From an uncultured Verrucomicrobiota bacterium (GTDB lineage: Bacteria; Verrucomicrobiota; Verrucomicrobiia; Opitutales; Opitutaceae), in the NCBI GenBank assembly GCA_903960515.1, contig CAJCBL010000065.1, forward strand, positions 1 to 64,000: DNA of 64,000 nt, given 5' to 3'. How positions within the stretch are numbered: position 1 is the first letter of the stretch; each line of letters opens with the position of its first letter. The translations under genes were made by a program, and so were the position numbers. Shown in pieces: positions 35,028-53,456 of the stretch. Under the pieces are notes generated by a model. The model saw nothing but the letters and a program-made list of their open reading frames with translations. It did not search any database and had not been told where the DNA came from.

Positions 35028-37199
35028 ATGCCGCACTCCGCCCCCACCATATTTGTAAGCGAGCGCGTAGACCGGCGGCGGCTGGCCAAGCGCCGGTTCC
35101 TGTTTTTCACGACGATCTTCGTGCTCACCTCGATCGCCGGCTGGTTCATGGCCGATCTGCTCTGGAGCAGCGGCGTTCGCCCCGGGCACATGAGCGCCAT
35201 CGAGTGGGTGGTGCTGGTGCTCTTTGTTGTGCTTTTCGCCCACGTGGCCACGGGGTTCACGCATGCGATCTTCGGCTTCTATGCGCTCAACCGCGGCGGA
35301 GACTTCTGCCGCATCCAGCGGACGCTGCCGCTCGCCCAGGTGGATGCGCCGCTGGGGCCCACGGCGGTGATCATGCCGGTGTGCAACGAGGACTCCAGCC
35401 GGGTGTTTGAGGGGCTGCGCGTGATCTTTCGCTCGCTGGAGGAGACGGGGAAGCTGGGGCATTTCGACTTCTTCATCCTTAGCGACACCAGCGATCCCAA
35501 CAAATGGATCCAGGAGGAACTCGCCTGGGTGGAGCTGTGCAAGCAGGTGGGCGGCTTTGGGCGCATCTTCTACCGCAAGCGCCGGCAGGGCATCAACAAG
35601 AAGAGCGGCAACGTGGCCGACTTCCTGCGACGCTGGGGCAGCAAGTACCGCTACATCGCCGAGCTCGACGCCGACAGCATCATGACCGGCCGCGCCCTGG
35701 TGCGCATGGTGCAGTTGATGGAGCGCAATCCCAAGGTCGGTATCCTCCAGAGCGTACCGCGGCTGGTGCGCGGGGAGACTCTCTTCGCCCGCCTGCAGCA
35801 GTTCGCCAACCGCCTCTACAGCCCGGTCTTCCTGGCCGGTCTCAACTACTGGCAGCAGGGCGAGGGCAATTTCTGGGGACACAACGCCATCCTGCGCACG
35901 GCCCCGTTCATGGAGTTTTGCAGCCTGCCCGACCTGCCCGGCAGCGAGCCCTTTGGCGGGCGCATCCTCAGCCACGACTTCGTAGAGGCCGCCTTGATGG
36001 CGCGTGCCGGCTGGAGCGTATGGCTGGCCTACGACCTCGACGGCAGCTACGAGGAGGGACCGCCCACGCTCATCGACAGCGCCAAGCGCGACCGCCGCTG
36101 GTGTCAGGGCAATCTCCAGCACACCTGGCTGCTCTTCGCCCAGGGACTGCGCGGGGCCAGCCGCATCCATCTTCTCATGGGAATCATGGGCTATGTGGCG
36201 TCGCCGCTGTGGCTGTTTTTTCTGGTGCTGAGCACGATCCACGTATTTGACCAGGTGACCTCCGGCAACCTGCGGGTGGTCAACGAAATGGTCATCGAGG
36301 GCTGGGGGGTCTATCTGGAGCTGCCGCAGACCCTGGCGCTTTTCGGGCTTACGCTGGTGATGCTTTTTGTGCCGAAGATCCTGGGCGTGATCGTGCAATG
36401 GAGGGATGAGGGCCGGCAGCCTGTCTACGGAGGGCGGATGCGCATGCTGGTGAGCGCGCTGGTCGAGACGGTGATCTCCTCGCTGCTGGCGCCCATCAAC
36501 ATGATGTTCCACTCCAAATTCGTCGTGTTCACCCTGCTGGGCCAGGGCGTGGGCTGGATCACCCAGCGCCGCGGTGTAGACGAGGGCGATTGGCGCGAGG
36601 CCATCCTCACCCACTGGGGACAGACCGTGTTCGGCATCGTGTGGGGAATCTCTGCTTACATCGTGCTGCCATCCTTCTTCTGGTGGTTGAGCCCGGTGCT
36701 GGCGGGTCTGGTGCTGTCCATCCCGCTCTCGCTCTTTCTGGGCAGCGGCGTGCTGGGCGAAGTCACCCGGCGCTGGGGCCTGTTCCTGATGCCCGAGGAA
36801 ACGAGGCCCCCCTACGAACTGCGCCGCCTCGAGAAGAATCTGGCCGAGTGCTACCGGCACATGCTCCCCCTTGAGGCTTTGCGCGGAGACTACGGGCTGC
36901 TCCAGGCCGTGCTCGATCCGTACATCAACGCCCTGCACGTATCGCTCCAGCGGCAACGACGCCCGGCGGAGGCCACGAGGGCCTATTTCCTCAAGCTTCG
37001 CGAGCGGCTGCTGCGCGAGGGGCCGCCCAAGCTCACCGCCCGCGAGAAGCGCGCGCTGTTGCTCGACCCCGAGAGCATGGCCTGGCTGCACCAGCAGCTC
37101 TGGAGCCGCCCGCAGGGTGAATTGGCGGAGTGGTGGCAACTGGCCGTGCGTCAGTACAATGTGCTCACCGCCCAGCCGGTCACCGCGTTGTATCGCTGA
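35028..37199 (+). CDS. opgH: Glucans biosynthesis glucosyltransferase OpgH
   Basis: 723 aa, inner-membrane GT2 glycosyltransferase. Two N-terminal helices (about 24-44 and 58-84), then the catalytic domain: IMPVCNED at 115-122, DFFILSDTSDP, ELDADSIMTG (D-x-D at 214-216), SHDFVEAALM (acid at 317) and RDRRWCQGNLQH, the Q/RxxRW-type motif, at 354-365. Several C-terminal helices follow. It makes the beta-1,2-glucan backbone from UDP-glucose and exports it to the periplasm for OpgG. ATG 35028 is two bases after the previous stop. Confidence 0.95.
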   Translation: MPHSAPTIFVSERVDRRRLAKRRFLFFTTIFVLTSIAGWFMADLLWSSGVRPGHMSAIEWVVLVLFVVLFAHVATGFTHAIFGFYALNRGGDFCRIQRTLPLAQVDAPLGPTAVIMPVCNEDSSRVFEGLRVIFRSLEETGKLGHFDFFILSDTSDPNKWIQEELAWVELCKQVGGFGRIFYRKRRQGINKKSGNVADFLRRWGSKYRYIAELDADSIMTGRALVRMVQLMERNPKVGILQSVPRLVRGETLFARLQQFANRLYSPVFLAGLNYWQQGEGNFWGHNAILRTAPFMEFCSLPDLPGSEPFGGRILSHDFVEAALMARAGWSVWLAYDLDGSYEEGPPTLIDSAKRDRRWCQGNLQHTWLLFAQGLRGASRIHLLMGIMGYVASPLWLFFLVLSTIHVFDQVTSGNLRVVNEMVIEGWGVYLELPQTLALFGLTLVMLFVPKILGVIVQWRDEGRQPVYGGRMRMLVSALVETVISSLLAPINMMFHSKFVVFTLLGQGVGWITQRRGVDEGDWREAILTHWGQTVFGIVWGISAYIVLPSFFWWLSPVLAGLVLSIPLSLFLGSGVLGEVTRRWGLFLMPEETRPPYELRRLEKNLAECYRHMLPLEALRGDYGLLQAVLDPYINALHVSLQRQRRPAEATRAYFLKLRERLLREGPPKLTAREKRALLLDPESMAWLHQQLWSRPQGELAEWWQLAVRQYNVLTAQPVTALYR

Positions 37200-37281
37200 G
37201 CCGCAACCATTCAAGTGGCACGCCGCCCGCCCCTGTTTGGTCTCCACCGGGGGTGGTATGGGGCCGCTACCGCGTTTCGCT

Positions 37282-37333
37282 AACGCTGAACGCAGAAGGC
37301 CGAACGCAGAACGCGTTCCTGCGAACGCTGAAG
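37282..37333. repeat. Short CGCAGA/CGCTGA word repeats
   Basis: AACGCTGAA, AACGCAGAA, GAACGCAGAAC and GAACGCTGAAG follow each other with small spacers. The same word on the other strand (TTCTGCGTT) occurs at 5433-5450 inside the DUF4350 gene. The surrounding convergent spacer (37200-37467) has no gene. Confidence 0.5.
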
Positions 37334-37467
37334 CTCTCAGCTCCGCATTCTTCGCCAGGTCCGCCGCCAACGCCCATGTTGAGCCGGGATGGATGCAAGG
37401 TGTGACCCAGCAGGTGGATTGAAATGGTTACTGCTCTGCGATGGGCCCGGCCCCCGGGCGAGGAGAC

Positions 37468-42820: not shown

Positions 42821-42945
42821 CGACGATTCAGTTGCAAGGTGCTTGCATGTGATCGGCGCTCTGAATCGCGTGCAAGCACGCTCCTACAGTGGAAACCTGA
42901 GTTCGCGCGCTTTCAGAGCGGAAAGCGGTACGATTGCATGGTTAC
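42821..42945 (-). repeat. Dispersed palindromic element, copy 1
   Basis: About 125 bases that align end to end with the reverse complement of 52411-52545. The shared right end is CGATTGCATGGTTAC; the other end is CGATTCAGT followed by a deletion. In the centre, GTGCTTGCATGTGAT and ATCGCGTGCAAGCAC form a hairpin with loop CGGCGCTCTGA. It has no coding capacity. It lies within the 309-base convergent spacer 42733-43041, which otherwise holds only a GC palindrome. Confidence 0.75.
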
Positions 42946-51444: not shown

Positions 51445-52410
<966 letters not shown>

Positions 52411-52545
52411 GCCGTAACCATGCAATCGTACCGCTTTGCGCTCTGGCAGTGCACGAACTCCGATGTCCGCCGCAGGAGCGTGCTTGCATGCGATCTGCGC
52501 TCTGAATCGCGTGCAAGCACGCTCCTACGACTGAATCGTTACGGC
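52411..52545 (+). mobile_element. Dispersed palindromic element with terminal inverted repeats, copy 2
   Basis: 135 bases. The ends are inverted: GCCGTAACCATGCAATCG at 52411-52428 against CGACTGAATCGTTACGGC at 52528-52545 (15 of 18 match). Inside, 21-base arms at 52474-52494 and 52506-52526 (AGGAGCGTGCTTGCATGCGAT; 20 of 21 pair) form a second hairpin. It begins directly after the MoxR stop codon and has no coding capacity, so it is a non-autonomous, MITE- or REP-like element within an operon. Confidence 0.75.
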
Positions 52546-52586
52546 TGAGGGGCGCGGTCGCCGCCTTCCCCAACGCGAGAGCCCCC

Positions 52587-53456
52587 ATGCCTGAGTTCAA
52601 ATACCTGCGGCCCGAGGACGTGCAGCGTCTGGCAAGCTACGAGTTCGCGCCCAAGATCCTTGTCGAAGGGTATTTGAGCGGCCGGCACCGCTCGAGTGCG
52701 CGCGGCACCTCTACGGAGTTCCGCGACTACCGGCAGTACGCCGAGGGCGACGATCCCAAGCTGGTGGACTGGAAGGTGTTCGCCCGCACCGATCGGCACT
52801 ACCTGCGCACCTTCGCCCACGAGACCAACCTGGACTGTCACCTCTTCCTCGATAGCAGCGCCTCGATGGGCTTCGGCGCGCCCCTCTCGAAGCTCGACTA
52901 CGGTTCGTTCTTCACCGCGGCGCTGTGCCATCTCGTGCTGCGCTCGGCGGACCGGGTGTCGTTGCAACTTTTCGACGACAAGATCCGGCATTTCGCGCCG
53001 CCGGGCAGCACCCGCGGGCACCTGAACAACCTGATGCAACTGCTGGAGCACAACCGGCCCGGCGGCCGCACACGCCTCTCGGTCGCGCTGCGCCGGGCGT
53101 ACCCGCTGCTCCGGCATCGGGGGGCGCTGGTGGTCGTGTCCGACTTCTTCGACGACGTGGGTGAGATCTTCGCTGCGCTCAGCCCCTATCTGCACCGGGG
53201 TTTCAATATTCACCTCTTCCACGTGTTGGCGCCCGAGGAGCTCGCGCTGCCCGACAAGGGCCTGCAGGCATTCGAGTGCCTGGAGACGGGGCAGCGGGTG
53301 GTCGCGCACACCGACCTTTTGCGCCGCGAGTACCCGCTGGCCATCCAGGCGCACATCCGGGCGATCCGCGAGCTGGCGGCGCGCCGGCGCATCAACTACA
53401 CGCAGGCCCGCACGGACACGCCTTTCTTCGAACTCTTCGACCGGCTCCAGGCATGA
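52587..53456 (+). CDS. DUF58 domain protein, second cluster
   Basis: 289 aa, shorter than the first DUF58 protein and without membrane anchors. Family motifs: STEFRDYRQYAEGDDPK, VDWKVFARTDRHYLR and a VWA-type metal site LFLDSSASMGFG (DxSxS intact), with VVVSDFFDD for the later acidic residue. A complete MIDAS suggests real metal-dependent ligand binding, unlike the first cluster. Its stop overlaps the next start (ATGA). A likely client adaptor of the MoxR ATPase. Confidence 0.9.
   Translation: MPEFKYLRPEDVQRLASYEFAPKILVEGYLSGRHRSSARGTSTEFRDYRQYAEGDDPKLVDWKVFARTDRHYLRTFAHETNLDCHLFLDSSASMGFGAPLSKLDYGSFFTAALCHLVLRSADRVSLQLFDDKIRHFAPPGSTRGHLNNLMQLLEHNRPGGRTRLSVALRRAYPLLRHRGALVVVSDFFDDVGEIFAALSPYLHRGFNIHLFHVLAPEELALPDKGLQAFECLETGQRVVAHTDLLRREYPLAIQAHIRAIRELAARRRINYTQARTDTPFFELFDRLQA

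Follow-up and report, generated by a model that had tools for sequence, protein, structure and literature searches.

REP-bearing MITEs are already known, and QMITE2 of Coxiella burnetii is one example: this 150-190-bp MITE carries a GTAG REP inside, is present in tens of copies and is described as lying mainly in 3' untranslated and intergenic sequence, with some copies overlapping gene ends (PMC5896051). In Pseudomonas, inverted REP pairs that form a long hairpin are described as REPINs (PMC3116915), and Opitutus terrae provides the case of a Verrucomicrobium with abundant GTAG REPs, among which dimers occur (PMC3733652). Tyrosine transposases are the accepted suspects for the spread of REPs, a process that is portrayed as poorly understood (PMC8266576). 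Insertion of a MITE into an operon is also on record, namely for Chunjie of Geobacter uraniireducens (PMC10969869; PMC5896051). The family analysed here resembles QMITE2 in architecture, copy number and location; the QMITE2 duplications are given as variable and 7-11 nt long, whereas a CTNAG target is used here, and here the ends are common to many genera while the core changes (PMC5896051). Compared with the REPINs as described for Pseudomonas (PMC3116915), most sampled paired REPs of the present genome lie within a larger unit that has inverted ends and a target duplication, and no RAYT gene with REPs close beside it is seen. The available part of the O. terrae account describes no surrounding MITE, unlike the arrangement found here (PMC3733652), and Chunjie differs in measuring 235 bp and in having no REP core mentioned in the text available on it (PMC10969869; PMC5896051). 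The open-access literature searched did not reveal a CTNAG-targeting set of ends that carries different REP-like cores over many genera of a family. The REP of this genome is presumably very similar in sequence to the Pseudomonas REPs.

The window, i.e. the whole 64,000-nt stretch of DNA that was analysed, belongs to contig 65 of a 5.5-Mb draft genome of 379 contigs. A complete REP-bearing MITE with both target duplications, termed copy 2, occupies 52407..52549 (+), 143 bp in total that correspond to the 138-bp element plus one CTGAG. From left to right, it consists of the left target duplication CTGAG (52407..52411, +), the left terminal inverted repeat CCGTAACCATGCAATCG (52412..52428, +), a 43-nt arm, a first REP arm, GCAGGAGCGTGCTTGCATGCGAT, in which GTAG is mutated to GCAG (52472..52494, +), an 11-nt loop, the inverted and exact REP GTAGGAGCGTGCTTGCACGCGAT (52506..52528, -), the right terminal inverted repeat, which reads CCGTAACGATTCAGTCG on the minus strand (52528..52544, -), and the right target duplication CTGAG (52545..52549, +). 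The ends read AGCCGTAACCATGCAATCG and, on the opposite strand, AGCCGTAACGATTCAGTCG. The internal arms at 52466-52494 and 52506-52534 are 86% complementary around the loop of 11 nt, and as RNA copy 2 is predicted to fold into one long hairpin of -70.8 kcal/mol (z -6.3 against 200 dinucleotide shuffles). The first-pass annotation had recorded a non-coding palindromic copy at 52411-52545; its position is borne out, the boundaries including both duplications being 52407-52549, and no gene is called inside, the nearest following start being at 52587. Copy 2 is a MITE: it has terminal inverted repeats (CCGTAACCAT...), targets CTNAG, is flanked by a direct duplication of its target site, and is short, non-coding and present in many dispersed copies. 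Its core is a GTAG-tagged inverted REP pair (REPIN), a high-copy palindrome whose inverted pair gives a hairpin, and the terms REP and REPIN are applied here to this core only. The original description of a single palindromic element was correct as to a mobile palindromic repeat; it was not correct as to there being one element, since the REP pair is enclosed by a MITE, whose ends also surround other cores elsewhere.

Used as a query against its own genome, copy 2 gives at least 103 matches, at least 41 of which are near-full-length (E 1.2e-39 or better), the latter being a lower bound because the best 40 of 519 candidates were scored. The REP 23-mer matches the genome 830 times (419 + 411; up to 3 mismatches) against 0 times for a reversed control, and the end motif CTNAGCCGTAACCAT 237 times (111 + 126; up to 1 mismatch) against 2 control matches, so that both repeats are present beyond chance. 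Among the 38 genomes searched for the end motif, this genome has the highest count, followed by 10 and 6 matches. A genome-wide search, as proposed with the annotation, thus yields numerous further copies. Within the window, copy 1 (~42822..42945, -) is a decayed member with eroded outermost ends that contains an exact REP (42865-42887, -). It had been annotated as reversed with one end deleted; it does lie reversed relative to copy 2, but the alignment reveals decay of both outermost ends instead of the loss of one. The spacer at 37200-37432, previously flagged as a possible third decayed copy, coincides with a third member (37196..37438, +) whose ends, CTGAG CCGCAACCATTCAA ... AATGGTTAC, match those of copy 2, the right one being decayed, but whose 233-bp interior is unrelated and contains no REP. 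The left CTGAG of this member holds the TGA (37197-37199) that is the stop of a glycosyltransferase ORF. A plasmid search with the locus returned partial matches only, all over MoxR, and Rfam found one tRNA and nothing else over the window. In six loci (L164, L169, L177, L184, L187 and L255), elements are arranged head to tail and share a single CTNAG, as would result if one element had used another's target copy as its insertion site. In L037 (1467-1651), single REPs that lack element ends follow one another in series, spaced 32 bp apart.

When 30 copies are aligned, their likeness ends at CTNAG on both sides. Before duplications (loose and strict cut), stop codons (per end and per element), REP pairing and core clusters were counted, exact duplicates, elements lying at the edge of a locus and pairs below the cut were removed; the three end-pair cuts were not equally strict, hence the unequal totals of paired elements in this genome (63, 68 and 50). 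Strict pairing leaves 50 elements here and 23 from other genomes, of which 33 and 16, respectively, have CTNAG on both sides. The variable base, for which all four bases are seen, agrees directly in 25 of the 33 pairs of this genome (mean of 9.9 under permutation, with 25 reached in 0 of 10000) and in 11 of the 16 pairs from other genomes (permutation mean 4.2; 3 of 10000). By comparison, the complement expected of a plain inverted repeat occurs in only 1 pair here and 2 elsewhere. A looser, earlier cut gave agreement in 28 of 39 pairs. This direct agreement is a target duplication, a feature that the annotation had proposed to look for. The pairs in which the base differs (8/33 and 5/16) must be explained by decay or recombination. 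The duplicated unit may be either TNA within a preferred CTNAG (3 bp) or all of CTNAG (5 bp).

Directly upstream of copy 2 lies the gene of a MoxR-type AAA ATPase (51445..52410, +; Pfam AAA_3 and AAA_lid_2) and directly downstream that of a DUF58 protein (52587..53456, +; Pfam), which is followed by a BatA/VWA protein gene (Pfam). The best relatives of both MoxR and DUF58 are found in genomes of uncultured organisms, Verrucomicrobia and Lentisphaeria, so the host is probably a Verrucomicrobium. In agreement with the annotation, copy 2 sits at the MoxR stop and splits the operon there, separating MoxR from DUF58: its left CTGAG holds the stop codon TGA (52408-52410), which survives because the duplicated CTGAG contains TGA. 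The MoxR-DUF58 spacer measures 176 nt, of which 38 nt remain after subtraction of the element and one target copy. Relatives with no element in this spacer have 29 nt (L061, the closest relative), 48 nt (L062), 9 nt (L064) and 10 nt (L068), and many distant relatives show greater variation. Divergence from G001 and G002, relatives within the genus, is too great for copy 2 to be compared with an unoccupied site, and the closest named relative has ~64% protein identity. In another genus, an orthologous gene pair is shared by G147, where an element occupies the stop codon of one gene, and G213, where the element is missing; this unoccupied site is not base-exact, since divergence has set in near the stop. 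These observations are very probably explained by a transposition event. Copy 2 would be a 138-bp non-autonomous DNA transposon (MITE) inserted where the last bases of moxR and its stop read CTGAG; insertion would have duplicated the target (TNA or the whole CTNAG), thereby restoring the MoxR stop and leaving the protein intact, and the REPIN core would travel as cargo between the inverted ends of the MITE. Directly observed parts of this explanation are the ends, the direct duplication over many copies, the number of copies, the shortness of the spacer where relatives lack the element and the one orthologous unoccupied site in another genus.

The position of copy 2 can also be read as the choice of a transposase that targets stop codons as such and not CTNAG generally. 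Stop codons were counted with a simple home-made codon-based gene caller, with the remaining CTNAG sites of that DNA as control. For the 122 sampled elements of this genome, TNA coincides with the in-frame stop codon of a called gene in 26 cases, is intergenic in 85 and inside genes in 11, compared to 31, 244 and 265 for the 540 other CTNAG sites. The resulting ratio of stop to intergenic positions (26:85 vs 31:244, Fisher p 0.004; p 0.047 if the excess is counted per end) speaks for stop-codon targeting, as do further stop-codon elements in two other genera (L339, L343 and L344). However, the excess is modest, and in other genomes, whose loci include chance pattern matches, 72 elements (8 stop, 51 intergenic, 13 inside genes) and 221 other CTNAG sites (12, 119 and 90) give 8:51 vs 12:119 with p 0.44. 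Purifying selection against intragenic insertion (11/122 vs 265/540) can yield the same excess, and the home-made nature of the gene caller weighs in the same direction, which makes targeting of stop codons as such very unlikely; the modest excess fits a CTNAG target combined with selection. Insertions at a stop-codon CTNAG are harmless because the duplication rebuilds TGA or TAA, and a stop-preserving target of this type shows a route by which such elements enter operons without breaking proteins. A different reading is that copy 2 could be mainly regulatory, maintained by selection between moxR and DUF58 because it stabilises or attenuates the mRNA. The stable hairpin (z -6.3), its site within an otherwise tightly packed gene row and the reported effects of REP and MITE hairpins on mRNA (PMC3733652) are in line with this role, but hundreds of copies are located elsewhere in the genome, relatives lack the element in the MoxR-DUF58 spacer and copy 2 contains no intrinsic terminator (0 hairpins followed by a T run), so that regulation is unlikely to be its main function. 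No promoter- or terminator-like site was found either. As an inserted MITE, copy 2, for which the annotation had proposed a stabiliser or attenuator role, could shield the upstream (moxR) transcript and lower DUF58 expression through its strong predicted mRNA hairpin.

The CTNAG elements are inferred to be mobilised in trans by a DDE-type transposase, perhaps of the IS5/IS1031 kind, which is suggested by the target TNA. Members of the IS1031 group of the IS5 family generate 3-bp (TNA) duplications inside a longer preferred target. The same arrangement is described for PIF/Harbinger Tourist MITEs (mPing), with 3-bp duplications of TTA/TAA inside a longer preferred target (PMC2836001). Unlike in these groups, no such transposase was found bracketed by the ends of CTNAG elements. 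The annotation had suggested a search for a transposase that uses the same ends, and none emerged among the PF01609, PF13359 and PF07592 loci or in the interiors of single ends. Neither the 9 PF01609 matches in this genome nor the 32 matches listed (30 loci) for nine other genomes include one bracketed by element ends; PF13359 has 0 matches in ten genomes, and PF07592 has matches in 10 of 200 genomes (30 loci), none of them bracketed. The interiors of 35 single ends have common similarity over element length only, and only 5 end pairs lie 0.5-6 kb apart, a chance-like number. End-like matches near genes in L210 and L213 were dismissed as transposase ends, as they look like remnants of neighbouring elements, and the IS5-like gene in L211 was dismissed as a partner, its ends being unrelated to those of the CTNAG elements. 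In this genome, an end flanking the L211 IS5-like gene is very similar to TAGGGTGTGTCTGGCAAAT, a different insertion element that in G216 (L426, ~2024) starts at the stop TAG of the gene whose stop holds the CTNAG element in G147. With regard to a mover of another class, tyrosine transposases are not known to leave a target duplication, and the direct duplication therefore favours a DDE transposase over a RAYT. According to the latter explanation, the whole unit would be a REPIN moved by a RAYT that cuts at the CT of CTNAG, with the arms beyond the REPs as mere baggage. TnpAREP is described as cleaving CT dinucleotides beside REPs (PMC8266576), CT begins nearly every end, the REPs are GTAG-tagged and the genome contains 17 PF01797 matches. 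However, most of these 17 Y1 genes belong to a separate element with its own ends, REPs are found within ~1.5 kb at only 5 of the 17 loci, and none of the 17 has a REP close beside the gene (nearest ~500 bp, L145), with the proviso that a gene may be missed in a draft genome. In addition, the same ends frame cores without REPs, and the direct agreement in 25 of 33 pairs is at odds with transposition by a tyrosine enzyme. RAYT as mover is rejected on the basis of the target duplication and the lack of REP-flanked RAYT genes, and we consider it highly improbable. Elements with a REP pair between duplication-leaving ends represent a second, testable route of REP spread. The Y1 (PF01797) protein of L142-L157 has 331 aa and ~15 copies, whose likeness does not extend past the stop codon TTCGGGTAG; the left end specific to this element, AGAAGGGACAGGTCGGAAATYTTAGAC, resembles the GGGGWSAS motif described for TIR-flanked tyrosine transposases (PMC3733652).

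At REP-seeded loci, one or more ends lie within 130 bp for 14 of 18 paired REPs compared to 3 of 21 single REPs, with 7 more REPs at contig edges set aside. Among 150 family genomes, 49 contain a degenerate form of the ends, representing 26 of 49 genera, with 3 control matches overall. Clustering of 94 distinct paired elements (68 here, 26 elsewhere) by core results in 16 clusters, and their representatives fold at z <= -3 in 8/16 and at z <= -2 in 10/16 cases (mononucleotide shuffles). Elsewhere, the cores include a different GTAG REP pair (G023), a GTGG-type pair (G051) and a GTAG hairpin (G024), and other palindromic cores within CTNAG ends are present in L310, L313, L320, L321 and L330. 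Bare 152-bp forms with no strong hairpin core exist in G051 and G098 (L332 and L341), so elements commonly have a hairpin core but can do without one. As the ends found in 49 of 150 family genomes frame differing, often palindromic cores, the data suggest a vehicle into which lineage-specific hairpins are taken up again and again. Family-wide, one CTNAG-target end pair might even act as an exchangeable chassis that loads the current REP-like hairpin of each lineage and spreads by cut-and-paste, in which case many REPs there would have been spread by a DDE transposase and not by a RAYT; this wider picture is offered tentatively and is, in our judgement, somewhat doubtful. In the bare forms L332 and L336 (G051), L341 (G098) and L350 (G079), the centre contains two inverted copies of TGCAGT (ACTGCATTGCAGT), a motif that also occurs inside the ends and may be a putative transposase binding site. 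In G051 (L331 1-300, L332 and L335), a second inverted-end element, AGCCTATCCGAATAAC...GTTATTCGGATAGGCT, adjoins the CTNAG element and also carries a GTAG hairpin pair, GTAGCGGCGGTCTRTGACCGCCG.
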